Counted from the first letter of the stretch, positions 18,536 to 27,301 are shown. The stretch is DNA of 37,575 nucleotides from Planctomycetota bacterium (GCA_026693065.1 JAPLNA010000310.1:1-37575), one strand, 5' to 3'. Made by a program: numbers and translations. Notes: generated from the sequence alone by a model not told the origin.

Positions 18536-19594
18536 ATGCGCGCACATCTGGCAACAATCCTGGCCGTAGGGGTGCTGGGTGGTTTCGGTTCGATGGTCTG
18601 GGCCTACAACCTGGTCGACGTGACCCCGGGGGCGGCCAACCCGCCCGGGGCCTCGACGCCTGCCCTCCCGCCTCCGTATGACACCATGGGCCTGGCCAAC
18701 GTGCTTTCCCCGGCCGTAACACCGGGCGTCACAACCACATCGGTCAATCTGTTCGGCTTCGACTGGGTCTATCAGAACAACGATCTCAACACCTTGCCCA
18801 CGACCAACACGTTAAACGACGAGCATGCCCCCGCCACGGGAGCGCCCAATGACATCGACGGCATCATCTTCTGGACGAACGGGTACCAACGGGTGTCCTT
18901 CTCGGGCCTGTCGGCCAACGTACAGAATATCCGTGTCTGGGGCGATAACGGCGACCGAATCGCCTGTCAGGTAACTGTTTACAGCACGACCGCGACTCTG
19001 GCCGGCGCCGACCTACTGGATCCGACCAAGTACAGCAACGTGGCCCTGGCGACGACGGCCGTGTCCTACACCGGCGACCCTTGGCCGTCCTTCGGCGGCT
19101 GGCAAGGCATCAGCGACAGCCCGTGGTATCAGGATTTTGCCGTTGCCACGGCCGCCGGCACCACGAGCATCCTGTTGGACTTCGGCTACGGGTCCACGGG
19201 GACCACCTCCCACACCCCCTCCCCGACCCCCGCGATTTACTGGTCCCGCCTGTATGAGATCCAGGCCTTCGGCACGGCCGGGGCCTCCTGGCCCAACTAC
19301 CTCGATGGCGACTTCAACAAGGACGGCGAGGTCGGCCCGGAAGACTTCGGCATCCTGAAGGACAACTTCGGCCTCGACAGCCTGCCCTTCGGCAACCACG
19401 AGAGCTGGACGCTGGGCGACGCCAACGACGACGGTGAGATCGGCCCGGAAGACTTCGGCATGCTGAAGGACAACTTCGGCCTCGACGGCGGACCCACCGG
19501 TACGTATCCCCTGTCGAACGTGCCCGAACCGGCCACCCTGGCCCTGTTGGGCCTGACCCTTCCGATCTTGCTGAAACGAAGGCCCAAGGCCTGA
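18536..19594 (+). CDS. PEP-CTERM sorting-domain protein with dockerin-like Ca-binding loop pair (copy 1)
   Basis: Start at 18536 (MRAHLATILAVGVLGGFGSMVWA); GDFNKDGEVGPEDFGILKDNFGLD...GDANDDGEIGPEDFGMLKDNFGLD; VPEPATLALLGLTLPILLKRRPKA. Confidence 0.85.
   Translation: MRAHLATILAVGVLGGFGSMVWAYNLVDVTPGAANPPGASTPALPPPYDTMGLANVLSPAVTPGVTTTSVNLFGFDWVYQNNDLNTLPTTNTLNDEHAPATGAPNDIDGIIFWTNGYQRVSFSGLSANVQNIRVWGDNGDRIACQVTVYSTTATLAGADLLDPTKYSNVALATTAVSYTGDPWPSFGGWQGISDSPWYQDFAVATAAGTTSILLDFGYGSTGTTSHTPSPTPAIYWSRLYEIQAFGTAGASWPNYLDGDFNKDGEVGPEDFGILKDNFGLDSLPFGNHESWTLGDANDDGEIGPEDFGMLKDNFGLDGGPTGTYPLSNVPEPATLALLGLTLPILLKRRPKA
19295..19540 (+). repeat. Dockerin-like/PEP-CTERM cassette, copy 1 of 5 (~242 bp near-identical DNA)
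   Basis: Visual alignment with the cassettes at 20337, 21520, 22819 and 24138; only scattered substitutions. Confidence 0.85.
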
Positions 19595-19640
19595 TATACG
19601 CAGAACCTGTTCCCTGAACCACCGTTCGGAGGAGAACCAG

Positions 19641-20639
19641 ATGAAATGGGGCAATCGAATCCTCGGACTGGCCTTGTTGGCCATGGTGTCTGTCGCGGGC
19701 CCCGCCCACGCCCTGATCAGCGTGGATTTCGTCGTCGGCACGTGGCAGGACCTCTCCGGCAGCAGCGGCGCCTGTTCGGGCGACACGACGACTACCGGCA
19801 CGGAGAAGAACACCGAGGGCATCGTTTTCACCGGGCAGGTGGGCCTCTGGAACGCCTTTGGCCTCGGCGCCTACACTAACGGCTGGGCCCACCAGAGCGG
19901 GTTCCTGAACGACGGAACTGGCGCCTCCACAACCGTCAAACTGGCGATGGGATCGGCCACCGGGGTAAGCGATGCGGGTTCTTGGCTTTGCGCTCCGAAT
20001 GAAGCACCGCCCGACTCCATCAAACAACTGCGGAACGAGTCGGCCTATATCTATTGTCCGTATGTTAACAACGTCAACCACTTTGCCTGGGCTTTCACCG
20101 GCCTGCAGGCCAACGCGTCCTATGATCTCGTGTGGTTCGGTCGGATCGAAGACGCCCTCAGCAACGTGGCCAATGGCGTATCGGGCTCTCGCGATTCCGA
20201 AGGCGACTGGAACTGGACCGGCCTCACCGCCGACGCCGACGGCACGATCGCCGGCGTTTTCACGGGCAATTCGAACAACCACAACGGGGGCCTCTATGGC
20301 GCCCAGATCGCCTCCGTCGGCGGCCCCGTCTGGCCCGACTACCTCGCCGGCGACTTCAACCTGGACGGCGAGGTCGGGCCGGAGGACTTCGGCATCCTGA
20401 AGGACGGTTTCGGCCTCGACAACCTGCCCTTCGGCAACCACGAGAGCTGGACGCTGGGCGACGCCAACGACGACGGCGAGATCGGCCCGGAGGACTTCGG
20501 CATGCTGAAGGACAACTTCGGCCTCGACGGCGGACCCACCGGCACCTACCCGCTGTCGACGGCCCCCGAACCGGCCACCCTGTTTGTCATCTTCGGCGCA
20601 GCCGCTCCGATGTGGCTGAAACGAAGGCCCAGGGCCTGA
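19641..20639 (+). CDS. PEP-CTERM sorting-domain protein with dockerin-like loop pair (copy 2)
   Basis: Signal peptide MKWGNRILGLALLAMVSVAGPAHA; same C-terminal cassette; APEPATLFVIFGAAAPMWLKRRPRA; RBS ggagga. Confidence 0.85.
   Translation: MKWGNRILGLALLAMVSVAGPAHALISVDFVVGTWQDLSGSSGACSGDTTTTGTEKNTEGIVFTGQVGLWNAFGLGAYTNGWAHQSGFLNDGTGASTTVKLAMGSATGVSDAGSWLCAPNEAPPDSIKQLRNESAYIYCPYVNNVNHFAWAFTGLQANASYDLVWFGRIEDALSNVANGVSGSRDSEGDWNWTGLTADADGTIAGVFTGNSNNHNGGLYGAQIASVGGPVWPDYLAGDFNLDGEVGPEDFGILKDGFGLDNLPFGNHESWTLGDANDDGEIGPEDFGMLKDNFGLDGGPTGTYPLSTAPEPATLFVIFGAAAPMWLKRRPRA
20337..20579 (+). repeat. Dockerin-like/PEP-CTERM cassette, copy 2 of 5
   Basis: Near-identical DNA to the other four copies. 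Confidence 0.85.
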
Positions 20640-20727
20640 GTGGAAACCCACCCCTTGCCCCGGGAGACGCCCGTGTCTGTCGGGGCGGAGGCGAAGGGCG
20701 TTCGTCGGCCCCACAAAAAAGTTTGTG

Positions 20728-20760
20728 TTTTCCCCCCATACGTAGAAGGGCGGGTATAAT
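20728..20760 (+). promoter_or_regulatory. Candidate promoter: TTTTCCCCCC ... TATAAT upstream of PEP-CTERM copy 3
   Basis: TTTTCCCCCC at 20728-20737 and TATAAT at 20755-20760; the same arrangement precedes copies 4 and 5. Confidence 0.45.
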
Positions 20761-20844
20761 CGCCGTTGGTGAACCTCCGGAACCCTCTGGCCTGAGCGGG
20801 GAGAGCGGAGGCCGTTTCTAGACCACATGTCGAAGGAGAATCGC

Positions 20845-21822
20845 ATGAAGAAGGGCCATTGGATCTCTGGATTAGCCTTGCTGGCCTTGGTGTTTGTCGC
20901 TAGTCCCGCCTACGCCTTGATCAGCGTCGACTTCGTTGTCGGCCAGTGGTATAATCTGACGAGCAGCGGGGTCTGCTCGGGCGACACGACTACCACCGGG
21001 ACGGAAAAGAACACCGCTGGCATCATTTTCACCGGCCAGGTCGGCCCGTGGAACGCCTTTAACATCGGGTTCTACACTTACGGATGGGCCCATCAGAGCG
21101 GGTTCCTGAACGACGGTGCCGGCAACCCGACGACCGTCGAACTGGCGATGGGATCGGCCACCGGATTACCCGATCCGGGCAATTGGGCATGCACTCCGAA
21201 TGAGGCGCCGCCCGACTCCATCAAGCAACTGCGGAACGAGTCGGCCTATCTTTACGGCGATATGTTCACGGGCGACCACTATGTATGGAGCTTTACCGGC
21301 CTGGAGCCCAACGCCGCGTATCAGTTGGTATGGTTCGGTCAGGGCGGCGGCACCAGCAACGTAGCCAATGGCGTGGCAGGCGTTAAAGATTCCGAGAATG
21401 ACTGGAACTGGGATAGCGTCACCGCCGACGCCGCCGGCACGATCCTGGGCACCTTCACGGGCTGGAGAACGCCGGGCCTCTATGGCGCCCAGATCGCCGC
21501 CGTCGCCCCCTCCTGGCCCGGCTACCTCGAAGGCGACTTCAACCTGGACGGCGAGGTCGGGCCGGAGGACTTCGGCATCCTGAAGGACGGTTTCGGCCTC
21601 GACAGCCTGCCCTTCGGCAACCACGAGAGCTGGACGCTGGGCGACGCCAACGACGACGGCGAGATCGGCCCCGAAGACTTCGGCATGCTGAAGGACAACT
21701 TCGGGCTCGACGGCGGACCCACCGGCACGTATCCCCTGACCAACGTCCCCGAACCGATGAGTCTGCTGACACTTATGGGCGCAGGGGCCGCGACGCTTCT
21801 CAAGCGGCGACCCAAGGCCTGA
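20845..21822 (+). CDS. PEP-CTERM sorting-domain protein with dockerin-like loop pair (copy 3)
   Basis: Start at 20845 after RBS GAAGGAG (an in-frame ATG at 20827 lacks an obvious RBS); MKKGHWISGLALLALVFVASPAYA; cassette; VPEPMSLLTLMGAGAATLLKRRPKA. Confidence 0.85.
   Translation: MKKGHWISGLALLALVFVASPAYALISVDFVVGQWYNLTSSGVCSGDTTTTGTEKNTAGIIFTGQVGPWNAFNIGFYTYGWAHQSGFLNDGAGNPTTVELAMGSATGLPDPGNWACTPNEAPPDSIKQLRNESAYLYGDMFTGDHYVWSFTGLEPNAAYQLVWFGQGGGTSNVANGVAGVKDSENDWNWDSVTADAAGTILGTFTGWRTPGLYGAQIAAVAPSWPGYLEGDFNLDGEVGPEDFGILKDGFGLDSLPFGNHESWTLGDANDDGEIGPEDFGMLKDNFGLDGGPTGTYPLTNVPEPMSLLTLMGAGAATLLKRRPKA
21520..21762 (+). repeat. Dockerin-like/PEP-CTERM cassette, copy 3 of 5
   Basis: Near-identical DNA to the other four copies. 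Confidence 0.85.
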
Positions 21823-21976
21823 CCCCCGACAACCCCCGGCGCCAGGCACGGTGCCGGGGTGGATCCTGGGTCATATCGCCGCGGCCGGCGGGAATCCGCC
21901 CGGCCCGGACGAGTTGGACTATCGCGGGCGAATCCGTTCGTGACAAGTTGGGTATTGGCTGCAAGAAATACCTGAG

Positions 21977-22010
21977 TTTTTCCCCACAAAAGCGAATTCT
22001 GTGGTAGTAT
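21977..22010 (+). promoter_or_regulatory. Candidate promoter: TTTTTCCCC ... TAGTAT upstream of PEP-CTERM copy 4
   Basis: TTTTTCCCC 21977-21985 and TAGTAT 22005-22010; same arrangement as copies 3 and 5. Confidence 0.42.
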
Positions 22011-22021
22011 CGTGGGCTGTT

Positions 22022-22053
22022 ACCTCTTTCACTTGAGCGGTGAGAGTGGAGGT
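22022..22053 (+). promoter_or_regulatory. 5'-leader hairpin of PEP-CTERM copy 4
   Basis: ACCTC-TTTCAC-[TTGAGCG]-GTGAGA-gtg-GAGGT: 11 bp (one U-G) with a 3-nt bulge and 7-nt loop, placed just after the candidate -10. Confidence 0.4.
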
Positions 22054-22086
22054 TTGGTTTTGGGTCATTATTTTGAGGAGAATCAC

Positions 22087-23121
22087 ATGAGAGTTCGCAA
22101 TTGGGTTCTCGGTCTGGCCTTGCTGGCCTTCGTATGCATGGCCGGGTCCGCCCAGGCCGTCGTCAGCGTGGACTTCGTTTACAACGGATACGATGTGAGT
22201 GTTGGCGTCACCAGCCCGTGTTCGGGCGACACGGTCCTCACCCCCGGCGAGACGATGACGAACGCCGACGGCATCATCTTCACCGGCCAGAGCGGTCCGT
22301 GGAATGCCGTGGCCGTGGGCGGGAACAACTCGGGGAATAACTCGGCCGGCACGCTGGGCCTGCTCGACGGCACGGGCGGGGCCAGTGGCATGAATTTCCT
22401 GATGGGCGTAGCGGCCGACGCGGGCAGCGGCGGCTGGCGCAATAACTGGAGCGCGGCCATCTCCAGCGGGAGCACCGGCGAGACCCTCCGGAATCCCCCC
22501 CCTTACGACTATACGACCGCGTCCGAATGCCCCTATCTCTACGATGGCGTCCTCACCGGTCCGTCCTACTCGTGGGCCTTCACGGGGCTGACGCCCAACG
22601 CGGCCTATAAGATCGCGTTCTTCGGCAGCGGGTCCGAGGCGGCCACCAGCCACACAGCCAATGGCGTCGCCGCCGTACTCGACTCCGAAGGCGACTGGAA
22701 CTGGGATAGCGTCACCGCCGACGGCACCGGCCAGATCCTCGGCGTCTTCACGGGCACGGCCTGCCCGGGCCTGTTCGGCGTGCAGATCGCCGCGGCTGGC
22801 GGCGGCCCCGTCTGGCCCGACTACCTCGCCGGCGATTTCAACAAGGACGGCGAGGTCGGCCCGGAAGACTTCGGCATCCTCAAGGACAACTTCGGCCTGG
22901 ACAGCCTGCCCTTCGGCAACCATGAGAGCTGGACCCTGGGCGACGCCAACGACGACGGCGAGATCGGCCCGGAAGACTTCGGCATGCTGAAGGACAACTT
23001 CGGTCTGGACGGCGGGCCCACCGGCACGTATCCCCTGACCAACGTCCCCGAACCGATGAGCCTGCTGACCCTCCTGGGTGTGGGCGTCCCGATGCTCCTG
23101 AAGCGGCGGGCCAAGGCCTGA
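22087..23121 (+). CDS. PEP-CTERM sorting-domain protein with dockerin-like loop pair (copy 4)
   Basis: Start at 22087 after gaggag RBS (MRVRNWVLGLALLAFVCMAGSAQA); cassette; VPEPMSLLTLLGVGVPMLLKRRAKA. Confidence 0.85.
   Translation: MRVRNWVLGLALLAFVCMAGSAQAVVSVDFVYNGYDVSVGVTSPCSGDTVLTPGETMTNADGIIFTGQSGPWNAVAVGGNNSGNNSAGTLGLLDGTGGASGMNFLMGVAADAGSGGWRNNWSAAISSGSTGETLRNPPPYDYTTASECPYLYDGVLTGPSYSWAFTGLTPNAAYKIAFFGSGSEAATSHTANGVAAVLDSEGDWNWDSVTADGTGQILGVFTGTACPGLFGVQIAAAGGGPVWPDYLAGDFNKDGEVGPEDFGILKDNFGLDSLPFGNHESWTLGDANDDGEIGPEDFGMLKDNFGLDGGPTGTYPLTNVPEPMSLLTLLGVGVPMLLKRRAKA
22819..23060 (+). repeat. Dockerin-like/PEP-CTERM cassette, copy 4 of 5
   Basis: Near-identical DNA to the other four copies. 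Confidence 0.85.
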
Positions 23122-23150
23122 TCTGAAGCCCCCCCATCAACCGGTACACC

Positions 23151-23195
23151 GACAGAACCACGGCGACGATCCGTCGCCGTGGTTCTGTCGTTTTT
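23151..23195 (+). terminator. Rho-independent terminator downstream of PEP-CTERM copy 4
   Basis: Perfect 18-bp stem GACAGAACCACGGCGACG-atc-CGTCGCCGTGGTTCTGTC followed by GTTTTT. Confidence 0.9.
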
Positions 23196-23219
23196 GGCCC
23201 GCCCGGCTGAAAATCCCGG

Positions 23220-23256
23220 TTTTTTCCCCCACGCCCACGCCGCGCGGGAGTATAAT
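23220..23256 (+). promoter_or_regulatory. Candidate promoter: TTTTTTCCCCC ... TATAAT upstream of PEP-CTERM copy 5
   Basis: T6C5 at 23220-23230 and TATAAT at 23251-23256, just downstream of the terminator. Confidence 0.5.
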
Positions 23257-23268
23257 CCGATCGTGATA

Positions 23269-23300
23269 GTTACCCCTTCATCCGGAGTGAACGGGGTGAT
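23269..23300 (+). promoter_or_regulatory. 5'-leader hairpin of PEP-CTERM copy 5
   Basis: GTTACCCC-TTCA-[TCCGGAG]-TGAA-c-GGGGTGAT stem with a 1-nt bulge and 7-nt loop, at the same relative position as the copy 4 hairpin but with different stem sequence. Confidence 0.42.
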
Positions 23301-23329
23301 TTGTTGACACCATGTCGAAGGAGACACCA

Positions 23330-24439
23330 ATGAACAGAACCACATGGGTACTTGGATTGGCTGCGGCCGTTCTGGTTGTGTCGGCCCCGGCGTTCGCTGA
23401 CGTCGTTCCCATCAGCGGATACATTCCCATCAACGATACCGTTGGCGCCGGCAACACCGGGCAGTTGGTGGGCGAGACGACAACCGCCTGGTGGAGCCAG
23501 GGTTTTTCGGTTCCTCTCGACCTCAACGGCAACACGCTCATTGTGGACAGCGGCGGCGGCAACATGCCCTTCAGCGTGGCGGCGCCCGTCACGGGAAGCG
23601 GCACGGTGAGTTTCCAGTCCGTCGTCTGGTGGAGCTATGGGAATGACAACTTCGAAACCGTGTCGGCTTCCATTGCCGCCACGGCCACCACGAACATCGT
23701 CTTCGGGCGGGTTCTGCTCGCCAACACGACCGGCCCGGCCATTCTCGGCAACATCAACGTGGGCACCAATACGAGCCAATCGGCTCGGCTCACCTGGGGC
23801 GCCAGCAACCAGTTCAGCCCCACGTCGGCCATCACGGTTCTGACCACCACGCTGACGGGCACGGAGTGGCCCGGCGGGTCGGAGGGCGACCCCCCCGTCC
23901 CGGTTTATCCAGACCCCACTCACTATCTGAACTTCCTGGATCTCGCCGGGTACAGCGACACGGTGGCCGCGTTGACCCTGGGCACTAACGTGCAGGTCCG
24001 CACCGGCACCGGCGGGGTGCTGACGACCAGCAGCCTGATCGTCGGCGGCGTGCCCCTGGGCGCCGGCACCTATACCTCCTCCAATTCCGCCTTCGTCACA
24101 GGCAGCGGCAGCGTGGTCGTGGGCGCCGGCTGGCCCGGCTACCTCGACGGCGACTTCAACCTGGACGGCGAGGTCGGGCCGGAAGACTTCGGCATCCTGA
24201 AGGACGGCTTCGGCCTCGACGGCCTGCCCTTCGGCCAGCATCAGAGCTGGACCCTGGGCGACGCCAACGACGACGGCGAGATCGGCCCGGAAGACTTCGG
24301 CATGCTGAAGGACAACTTCGGCCTGGACGGCGGGCCCACCGGCACGTATCCCCTGACCAACGTCCCCGAACCGATGAGCCTGCTTGCCCTCCTGGGCGTG
24401 GGCCTTCCCATGCTCCTGAAGCGGAGGGCGAACGCCTGA
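23330..24439 (+). CDS. PEP-CTERM sorting-domain protein with autotransporter-beta-strand-like passenger and dockerin-like loop pair (copy 5)
   Basis: Start at 23330 (MNRTTWVLGLAAAVLVVSAPAFA); YLNFLDLAGYSDTVAALTLGTNVQVRTGTGGVLTTSSLIVGG; cassette; VPEPMSLLALLGVGLPMLLKRRANA. Confidence 0.85.
   Translation: MNRTTWVLGLAAAVLVVSAPAFADVVPISGYIPINDTVGAGNTGQLVGETTTAWWSQGFSVPLDLNGNTLIVDSGGGNMPFSVAAPVTGSGTVSFQSVVWWSYGNDNFETVSASIAATATTNIVFGRVLLANTTGPAILGNINVGTNTSQSARLTWGASNQFSPTSAITVLTTTLTGTEWPGGSEGDPPVPVYPDPTHYLNFLDLAGYSDTVAALTLGTNVQVRTGTGGVLTTSSLIVGGVPLGAGTYTSSNSAFVTGSGSVVVGAGWPGYLDGDFNLDGEVGPEDFGILKDGFGLDGLPFGQHQSWTLGDANDDGEIGPEDFGMLKDNFGLDGGPTGTYPLTNVPEPMSLLALLGVGLPMLLKRRANA
24138..24380 (+). repeat. 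Dockerin-like/PEP-CTERM cassette, copy 5 of 5
   Basis: Near-identical DNA to the other four copies. Confidence 0.85.
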
Positions 24440-25293: not shown

Positions 25294-27141
25294 TTATTTC
25301 TTCTTCTTCGGAACGGCCCCTTCGCGGTTGTACTCGCGAACGAAGGTCCCGGCGACGGGCCTGCCCGCGTCGTCGAAGAGCCGGGCCTTGAGGGTGAACT
25401 TGTCCAGCTTCGCCCCGGCCAGCTTGATGGGCCTGGCGTACGCGGGCGAGTTCTTCACCGGGTCCTTGCCGTCGAGGGTGTAACGGATAACCCCGCCGGG
25501 CACGGCCTTCTTGAGCACGAGGGCGCTGGCGGCGTTGAAGGTGAAGGGCGGCATAATGCCCGAGCCCTCATCCCCCTTGCCCCCGTCCTTGAGCCAGGCG
25601 TCGAGGTCCTGGACGAGCCCGGTTTCCTCGGCGTACAGGCCGGTCGTCAGGCGGTCGAGGGCCCGATCGCAGGCCCCCTGTCGCGGGGCGAAGTCGTCGT
25701 AGGTCTTGCCCGAGAACGGGCTCCAGGCCTTCTCGTTCCGCGGGGGCGACTTGTATCGCAGCTTGGGCAACGCCTCGCCCCCGGGCCGCTCCCACAGCAA
25801 CATCTGCGTGCCCAGCATCAGCTCGGGCTTCATCCCCTCCTGCCAGGCGTTCCACTCGTACACCGCCTGCACGGGCTGATACACGCACGGCGTCCAGGTG
25901 ACCTGGATGACCGGATGCTCCTGGTTCATGTAGCTGGCCGAGTTGCCGTTGTTGCCGTCGATGTGCCAGACCATCACGATCACCTCTTTGGGCACGCGCT
26001 CGGCGATCGGAGCGTCCTCCCAGACGATCGTGCGTTTCTTGTACTTCTTGAGGATCTCGGCCATCTTCCCGATGTGCCACGCGAACAGATCATGGCCGCT
26101 GGTGATCGCGTTGGTCTTGATGAACTCGGCCGGGGCGTTCTTGAACGCGCCGTCCAGGCTCGTCTCGTCGCAGCCGATGTGGATGTAGGGCGTGGTCTTG
26201 AAGACCTGGCAGAGCTCGCCCATGATCGTGTCCATGGCCTGGTAGAACTTCGGGTTGGTCGGGTTCATCGAGCCGTGGTCCGGGCCGAAGATCTCCGGAC
26301 AGCACCGCATGCCGGCGCTGTAATGCCCCACCGTCTCGATCTCGGGCAGGATGTTCACTCCGCGTTCGTCGGCGAACTTCGCCAGGTCCTGCCATTCGGC
26401 CAGGCTGGGCAGTCGCGGGGTGGGCCCGCCGTGGGCGGCGGAGTTCCGCGTGCCCAGCTTGGGGTAGGCCTTCGAGGGGAACGTCCAGGCCTCCATGTCC
26501 GTCAGGTGCAGGTGCAGGTACCGCATGCGGTAGAAGTGCATCATCAGGATGACCGACTTGAGATCCTCCATCGAGTTCTCCTGCCGCGCGATGTCCACCA
26601 TCGTGCCGGTGTACTCGGAGTGGGGCTTGTCGGAGACGGTCATCTTCGGGACGACCGTGCCCTTTTTCGCGTCGCGTGTGACGGCCTGCAGCAGCAGCGT
26701 CGTGCCGTGCACCGCCCCGATGTATCCGCCGCCCTTGATCTCGACGCGGTCGGTGACGGTGACGGTGTAGGCCTCTTCATTCTTAAGCGAGGCGTCCAGC
26801 CCCAGGACGATGTCGCCGGCCTGGGCGGGGGCGGGCTCGATCGCGAGCCTCTGGCCCGAAACCATGAACAGCTCGCCGCGGAAGATCTTCGCCAGGTTCG
26901 CCAGCGACTTGTCCGTCGCGACGATCCGCCCGGTCCCGGTCAGGGGCATCTCGCCCGCCCCGAGCGTGAACGACTGCGGCCAGGGAACGAAGTTCGCCGC
27001 CGGCGCCGCCGGAGCGGTCGTCGGTTCCTCCGCCGGGGCGGTGGTGGTTTCCTCCGAAGGGGTATCGCCCGGCTCCTGCCCCCACGCCGCCCAAGGCCCC
27101 AATACGAAGAGAACCGCTACGACGAGGACGTGTGATCGCAT
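25294..27141 (-). CDS. Secreted GH20-type beta-N-acetylhexosaminidase
   Basis: Start at 27141 (MRSHVLVVAVLFVLGPWAAWG); FVPWPQSFTLGAGEMPLTG; catalytic YIHIGCDETS; chitobiase-like VIRYTLDGKDPV; high similarity to the protein at 787-3204. Confidence 0.88.
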   Translation of the reverse strand: MRSHVLVVAVLFVLGPWAAWGQEPGDTPSEETTTAPAEEPTTAPAAPAANFVPWPQSFTLGAGEMPLTGTGRIVATDKSLANLAKIFRGELFMVSGQRLAIEPAPAQAGDIVLGLDASLKNEEAYTVTVTDRVEIKGGGYIGAVHGTTLLLQAVTRDAKKGTVVPKMTVSDKPHSEYTGTMVDIARQENSMEDLKSVILMMHFYRMRYLHLHLTDMEAWTFPSKAYPKLGTRNSAAHGGPTPRLPSLAEWQDLAKFADERGVNILPEIETVGHYSAGMRCCPEIFGPDHGSMNPTNPKFYQAMDTIMGELCQVFKTTPYIHIGCDETSLDGAFKNAPAEFIKTNAITSGHDLFAWHIGKMAEILKKYKKRTIVWEDAPIAERVPKEVIVMVWHIDGNNGNSASYMNQEHPVIQVTWTPCVYQPVQAVYEWNAWQEGMKPELMLGTQMLLWERPGGEALPKLRYKSPPRNEKAWSPFSGKTYDDFAPRQGACDRALDRLTTGLYAEETGLVQDLDAWLKDGGKGDEGSGIMPPFTFNAASALVLKKAVPGGVIRYTLDGKDPVKNSPAYARPIKLAGAKLDKFTLKARLFDDAGRPVAGTFVREYNREGAVPKKKK

Positions 27142-27301
27142 GACGGGCTCCTGAATGGCCGCGCCTCCGGTATCTCTCGCCCGGCCGCCGCGGACACAAG
27201 CCCATTGTACCCTCCCCCCGCCCGCCCGCAAGCTCGCAGGGCGGGCGCCATGGCTTGCGGGGCCGCCTCCACCACGTCGGGGGTCGCGCCGCGGCCGCGG
27301 G

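Follow-up and report, generated by a model that had tools for sequence, protein, structure and literature searches.

A dockerin/PEP-CTERM cassette shared by varied exported proteins of a Planctomycetota genome: a probable recombination-homogenised docking handle

Results

An array of five genes with a common 3′ segment

The window (the whole stretch of DNA analysed here, 37,575 nucleotides from Planctomycetota bacterium, GCA_026693065.1 JAPLNA010000310.1:1-37575) carries an array of five same-strand genes at 18536-24439. Each has a signal-peptide-like start, a variable front, a near-constant 225-nt segment (the cassette) and a PEP-CTERM tail; the sequence-only reading, which described five PEP-CTERM genes with a nearly identical back segment, had placed them correctly. 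Copy 1 (18536..19594, plus strand) encodes an exported protein whose front, akin to those of C72_3946, C72_5124 and C428_937, is followed by the cassette and PEP-CTERM. Copies 2 (19641..20639, plus), 3 (20845..21822, plus; open frame from 20827) and 4 (22087..23121, plus) have fronts of one family, also found in C255_7250, which are 49-70% identical over aligned front codons. The first third of the copy 4 cassette matches copy 1. Copy 5 (23330..24439, plus; open frame from 23312) has an unrelated front. The front alignment thus bears out the earlier assignment of copies 2-4 to one family and of copies 1 and 5 to others, but the proposal that copy 5 carries an autotransporter beta-strand passenger is unsupported, as its front has no Pfam match. 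PATR repeats are present in another cassette protein, on contig C297. Likely starts with ribosome-binding sites were located at 18536 (copy 1), 20845 (copy 3) and 23330 (copy 5), which corrects the earlier annotation.

The cassettes, all on the plus strand, lie at 19307..19531 (copy 1; dockerin repeats A and B, linker and PEP), 20349..20573 (copy 2), 21532..21756 (copy 3), 22831..23055 (copy 4) and 24149..24373 (copy 5). They span 75 codons each, with nucleotide identities of ~0.89-0.95 in the computed pairs. The two loops (DFNxDGEVGPED and DANDDGEIGPED), the GGPTGTYPL linker and the PEP-CTERM tails were all found where they had been read. In copy 1 the rest of the PEP-CTERM tail (19532..19594, plus) comprises a membrane helix and KRR; equivalents follow every cassette, and the tails evolve separately from the cassettes.

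The array was also said to lie next to secreted GH20 enzymes. One GH20 gene, beta-hexosaminidase-like, does adjoin it (25294-27231, minus strand), but this gene has no cassette; a different GH20 (C297, L052) bears one.

Several of the cassette genes are preceded by a TTGAC/TATAAT-like promoter of their own and have an inverted repeat, rich in GC, in the leader. Such regions occur in the window at 20770-20825, 22020-22060 and 23265-23300, and upstream of C375_6310, C428_937 and C72_3946 (L044, L046 and L034). One example of the repeat, CGCCCGACATCGGGCCGGGCGG, is found in both C375 and C72_3946 and, nearly unchanged, in C428. These leaders may share a hairpin; an Rfam scan of the window gave no family.

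The cassette is a dockerin-like module fused to a sorting signal

Over its ~225 bp, the cassette fuses a dockerin-like module of two repeats to a PEP-CTERM signal. The two calcium loops are of dockerin type and retain D1, N3, D5 and D12; LPFGNHESWTLGD connects them, and GGPTGTYPL and then the PEP motif come next. Among the calcium ligands of the two repeats, positions 1, 5 and 12 are near-invariant and position 3 is mostly N or D. Most of the 56 genomic matches to Dockerin_1 (PF00404) exceed the curated cut-off. When the five window proteins were scanned alone, they scored 17.6-21.7 bits, just under the cut-off of 22.9; three of the five exceeded it in the genome scan. The solved structures nearest to the cassette include the CelS dockerin, and AlphaFold models of copy 3 and of the cassette were of low confidence (pLDDT 37.8 and 47.7).

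The edges of the module are sharp. Mean column identity over 33 copies is ~0.30 up to 30 nt ahead of the cassette, 0.50 and 0.67 across WP.YL, and 0.82-0.97 through the 225 nt; it falls from 0.63 to 0.43 in the membrane helix and to 0.27-0.31 beyond the helix and stop. The end of the module therefore coincides with the end of the reading frame. No flanking repeats were seen around the cassette in this profile, and searches for its relatives in viral contigs and plasmids were empty, so a mobile-element origin has no support. Scans of other genomes returned closest relatives that are only 57% and 46% identical (in an Omnitrophota bin and an archaeal bin), and a search for DUF4430 found nothing.

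Fifty-nine genes carry the cassette dialect on varied fronts

In the genome (5.68 Mb in 441 contigs, 93% complete), we found 62 matches to the cassette dialect, which resolve to 59 genes with 38 clusters of fronts. All Dockerin_1 matches fall among these genes. Type A copies, with an SW.LGD linker, number 46; PEP-CTERM follows in 43 of them, and a contig end cuts two of the other three. The 13 type B genes are without this linker, and about half of them are without PEP-CTERM. A scan of 20 fronts recognised LamG-like domains, a serine hydrolase, a trypsin-like protease, a phosphoesterase, one GH20 (in the GH20/PATR protein) and one weak beta-helix, while the remaining fronts had no Pfam match. 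As an architecture, then, a common handle for different passengers is supported.

Contigs are broken within or at the edge of cassettes at the ends of C72 and C398 and the start of C281 (L034, L054 and L049), which suggests that the true copy number is probably above 59. Because some copies have exact stretches of up to 141 nt in common and the assembly is in 441 pieces, misassembly may affect a small number of joins. An origin of the copies in contamination was considered and set aside: most cassette contigs agree with the window in GC and tetranucleotide profile, C94, C77 and C428 being least alike. LEPR-like N-terminal motifs (LEPRLLLSG and variants) occur in C258, C157 and C101.

An exosortase is present, and a cohesin was not detected

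Sorting by exosortase, as proposed from the sequence, gains support from the rest of the genome. It encodes one clear exosortase (PF09721, E 2.3e-53; TIGR02602, 154.8 bits against a cut-off of 105.55), which adjoins a polysaccharide-export gene and a PrsT-like TPR gene. The PEP-CTERM matches number 136, compared with 59 dialect genes, so most PEP-CTERM proteins are without the cassette. The window proteins have the PEP motif, hydrophobic helix and basic cluster; copies 3 and 5 pass in the TIGR02595 genome scan, and the other three show the pattern below the cut-off. By analogy with the exosortase (EpsH) system of Haft et al. 2006 (PMC1569441), this combination argues for sorting to the envelope or matrix. 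Proteins that lack PEP-CTERM carry this dialect too, which suggests a role for the dockerin part apart from sorting.

The cellulosome-like scheme suggested earlier gained no support. No cohesin in the 93%-complete genome exceeded the profile cut-off (best E 0.6), nor did a relative's cohesin sequence used as a query find a match. The same search was positive in two dockerin-bearing relatives, G001 and G053. It found none in G019, G014, G058 and G044 and none above the cut-off in G037, all of which carry dockerins; cohesins are thus undetected in most of the dockerin-rich relatives. The studied genome has no detected cohesin-bearing scaffoldin, its dockerins are not mainly on plant-cell-wall enzymes, and most fronts have no enzyme domain. 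Single proteins with both cohesin and dockerin matches, in G001 (C434, L161) and G053 (C226, L162 and L165), are candidate adaptors.

In homologous neighbours, cassettes appear younger than their fronts

Divergence along homologous neighbouring genes is not uniform: old fronts are joined to young cassettes, with the jump in identity located at the cassette edge. In the closer pairs, dS is 0.50-1.12 in fronts and 0.10-0.42 in cassettes. The respective values are 0.50 and 0.16 for window copies 2/3, 0.92 and 0.29 for copies 3/4, 0.64 and 0.17 as well as 0.82 and 0.17 for C72 pairs, and 0.69 and 0.10 as well as 0.91 and 0.12 for C211 pairs. Two pairs show the reverse, with a cassette more diverged than the front (C258/C335, 0.20 in the front vs 0.76 in the cassette; C159/C362, 0.38 vs 0.68), as expected from cassette replacement. 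Tails also switch independently, since the C72_2637 and C72_3 cassettes are 96% alike and their tails saturated.

Synonymous sites are conserved as well. Where residues are identical, the same codon is used in a fraction of 0.79, above both the 0.46-0.52 expected from other genes and every one of 500 within-copy synonymous shuffles (0.69, maximum 0.70). Moreover, for the same residue, different codons are fixed at different positions of the cassette. The PHI test rejects the absence of recombination (P<=0.005). Likeness is greater between copies that share a contig (0.922 vs 0.891, P<0.001). A test of the longest identical run was mixed (maximum, P 0.295, no signal; mean, P 0.005).

The five window cassettes form a mosaic at 13 informative sites. 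Block 1 (sites 12-59) is common to copies 1 and 4, with copy 5 joining at two sites, block 2 (92-185) to copies 4 and 5, and block 3 (207-209) to copies 3, 4 and 5. Blocks 1 and 2 occur in all four combinations (four gametes), and the blocks do not track the front families (2, 3 and 4; 1; 5).

At the level of sequence comparison, the dS differences, position-specific codons, PHI test, window mosaics and genome-wide copies together support spread and homogenisation by recombination between dispersed copies, as the sequence-only reading had proposed. Its enzymology would be ectopic gene conversion, with capture of the cassette by new fronts. Our data include no sister species with the cassette, so conversion that still continues can be told only partly from spread in one recent burst. 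Among the genomes sampled, strong homogenisation at the DNA level is specific to this one; pooled-repeat codon tests in the others revealed little.

Two beta-helix-like proteins (L060:3164-5017 and L056:1413-2981) have fronts that are 93% identical and dockerin linkers that differ, one being the type-A-like SLPCDSHESW; this looks like a cassette exchange.

Each dockerin-rich genome has its own dialect

Dockerin-rich relatives each have their own version of the repeat: VDLDDFVILKQNFG in G037, VNVGDLGILAANYG in G044, VNFKDYIVLE.NFG in G014 and VGIADLGALADNYG in G013, with VGPEDFGILKDNFG in the studied genome. The dialect of the latter was found in no other genome of the 398 searched in its class (a set that includes it), the best match elsewhere being 51% identical. 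With relatives' copies chosen by similarity to the studied cassette or best Dockerin_1 score, within-genome minus between-genome identity peaks at positions 13 (0.59), 17 (0.57) and, with 0.56 apiece, 10 and 11; at calcium ligands 1, 5 and 12 it is close to zero. Dockerin recognition residues reported in the literature are at positions 10, 11, 17, 18 and 22 (PMC3413522); among sets of four non-invariant positions, that of 10, 11, 17 and 18 falls within the top 1.5%.

In type B copies the dialect residues at positions 9, 10, 11, 14, 17 and 18 are retained (identity 0.84), with codon identity of 0.68, compared with 0.82 in type A and 0.53 expected. In G037, where DNA homogenisation is weak, L10 and K17 are each found in 42 of 42 copies, L10 being written with four codons. 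The constraint on residues is thus seen with little homogenisation of DNA, which fits a recognised surface. Intramolecular packing, especially at position 13, could lie behind part of it, and the dialects could come partly from recent expansion within each lineage. The C terminus behind the dockerins of G044 (L142-L147) has another pattern, SLCSGLGLPMIAG and a hydrophobic stretch, with a cysteine; this is possibly a further sorting signal.

Discussion

We consider it probable that the cassette serves exported proteins as a docking handle, specific to this genome and homogenised by recombination. Two calcium-binding dockerin repeats and a PEP-CTERM signal would together act as one shuffled C-terminal unit. 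Ectopic gene conversion between dispersed copies and capture by new fronts would spread it and keep it uniform, while selection would hold the dockerin surface in a single genome-specific dialect, a step supported by the type B copies, which keep the dialect with far less DNA homogenisation. The signal peptide would export the protein and the single exosortase found, judging by its family, would process the tail. The product, a front domain with a uniform dockerin plug, would then stay in the exopolysaccharide matrix or at the envelope. Its dockerin face speaks for docking; the plug may bind, in a calcium-dependent manner, a common partner other than a recognisable cohesin, or other plugs. Of the earlier interpretation, recombination, sorting and the shared handle are retained, and the cellulosome-like part is not.

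Much of the likeness among copies could simply reflect youth. A recent duplication of one cassette gene, whose 3′ end many fronts then acquired, might account for it, with neither continuing conversion nor docking, and with the repeats serving as a stiff stalk before the anchor. The copies are indeed 86-97% identical to one consensus, their dialect was found in none of the other genomes of the 398 searched, and the greater likeness of PEP-CTERM tails within than between species has been explained by recent paralogous expansion (Haft et al. 2006, PMC1569441). Yet the front duplications are old (dS 0.5-1.1) and their cassettes young, which means that cassette exchange postdates duplication; the mosaics and the PHI test reveal exchange among copies, and dialect residues are fixed even in copies and genomes with little DNA homogenisation. 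We regard this account as rather unlikely, though with a real chance of being correct.

Constraint on codons and amino acids of a highly expressed module, with no recombination, is a very improbable cause. Codon use in the cassette is itself biased, and a usage-only model based on the cassette predicts a same-codon fraction of 0.69, but the observed value lies beyond all shuffles, codons are position-specific, window copies are block mosaics, and type B copies retain residues with fewer of the codons. Hardly better are the chances of a true cellulosome-like or planctosome-like system whose scaffold cohesins are missing from the assembly or too diverged to recognise. The many Dockerin_1 matches above the cut-off, the structural proximity of CelS, the cohesins of G001 and G053 and the proposal of planctomycete cohesin-dockerin complexes (PMC6461901) speak for such a system; the negative cohesin searches in this genome and five relatives and the scarcity of enzyme domains speak against it.

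The cassette proteins resemble the PEP-CTERM/exosortase system (PMC1569441) in their signal peptide, C-terminal PEP motif, membrane helix and basic tail, in the many diverse proteins per genome, in an exosortase adjoining polysaccharide-export and TPR genes, and in tails more alike within species. Unlike in that system, a dockerin module of ~60 residues is welded to the signal here, and it is more conserved than the PEP-CTERM tail, down to synonymous sites. Type I and II cellulosome dockerins (PF00404; PMC3413522, PMC5590126) have in common with the module a pair of 12-residue calcium loops bearing D1, N3, D5 and D12, residues at 10, 11, 17 and 18 that vary by species, and Phe20-Gly21, which is reported for type II. 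The module differs in having Gly in place of Asn at position 9, in the PEP-CTERM that follows, in the lack of a detected cohesin or scaffoldin, and in passengers that are mostly not recognisable enzymes. Like the planctosome proposed for freshwater planctomycetes (PMC6461901), it places planctomycete dockerin proteins outside cellulose degradation, but the cohesin-bearing anchor and adaptor proteins of that model were not detected here.

Within-species likeness of PEP-CTERM tails and species-specific dockerin recognition are already known. The fused dockerin/PEP-CTERM module, its DNA-level homogenisation with mosaics, and the cohesin-less dialects are what this analysis adds; a full-text search, with most subscription journals outside its scope, returned no literature joining dockerins with PEP-CTERM or, in this sense, with gene conversion.

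Dockerins without cohesins are widespread and unexplained. The 59 dialect-uniform genes, some homogenised in DNA and others mainly in residues, separate recombination from selection, and the dialect residues point to what a partner should read. More tentatively, and with less confidence than for the cassette itself, we propose that cohesin-less, dockerin-rich bacteria of the planctomycete type may each use a private dialect, read by a non-cohesin surface receptor or by one another, so that some 60 proteins would be mounted via one plug, kept uniform here by gene conversion. The genome also shows a bacterial C-terminal sorting module that is swapped among proteins in an exon-like manner.
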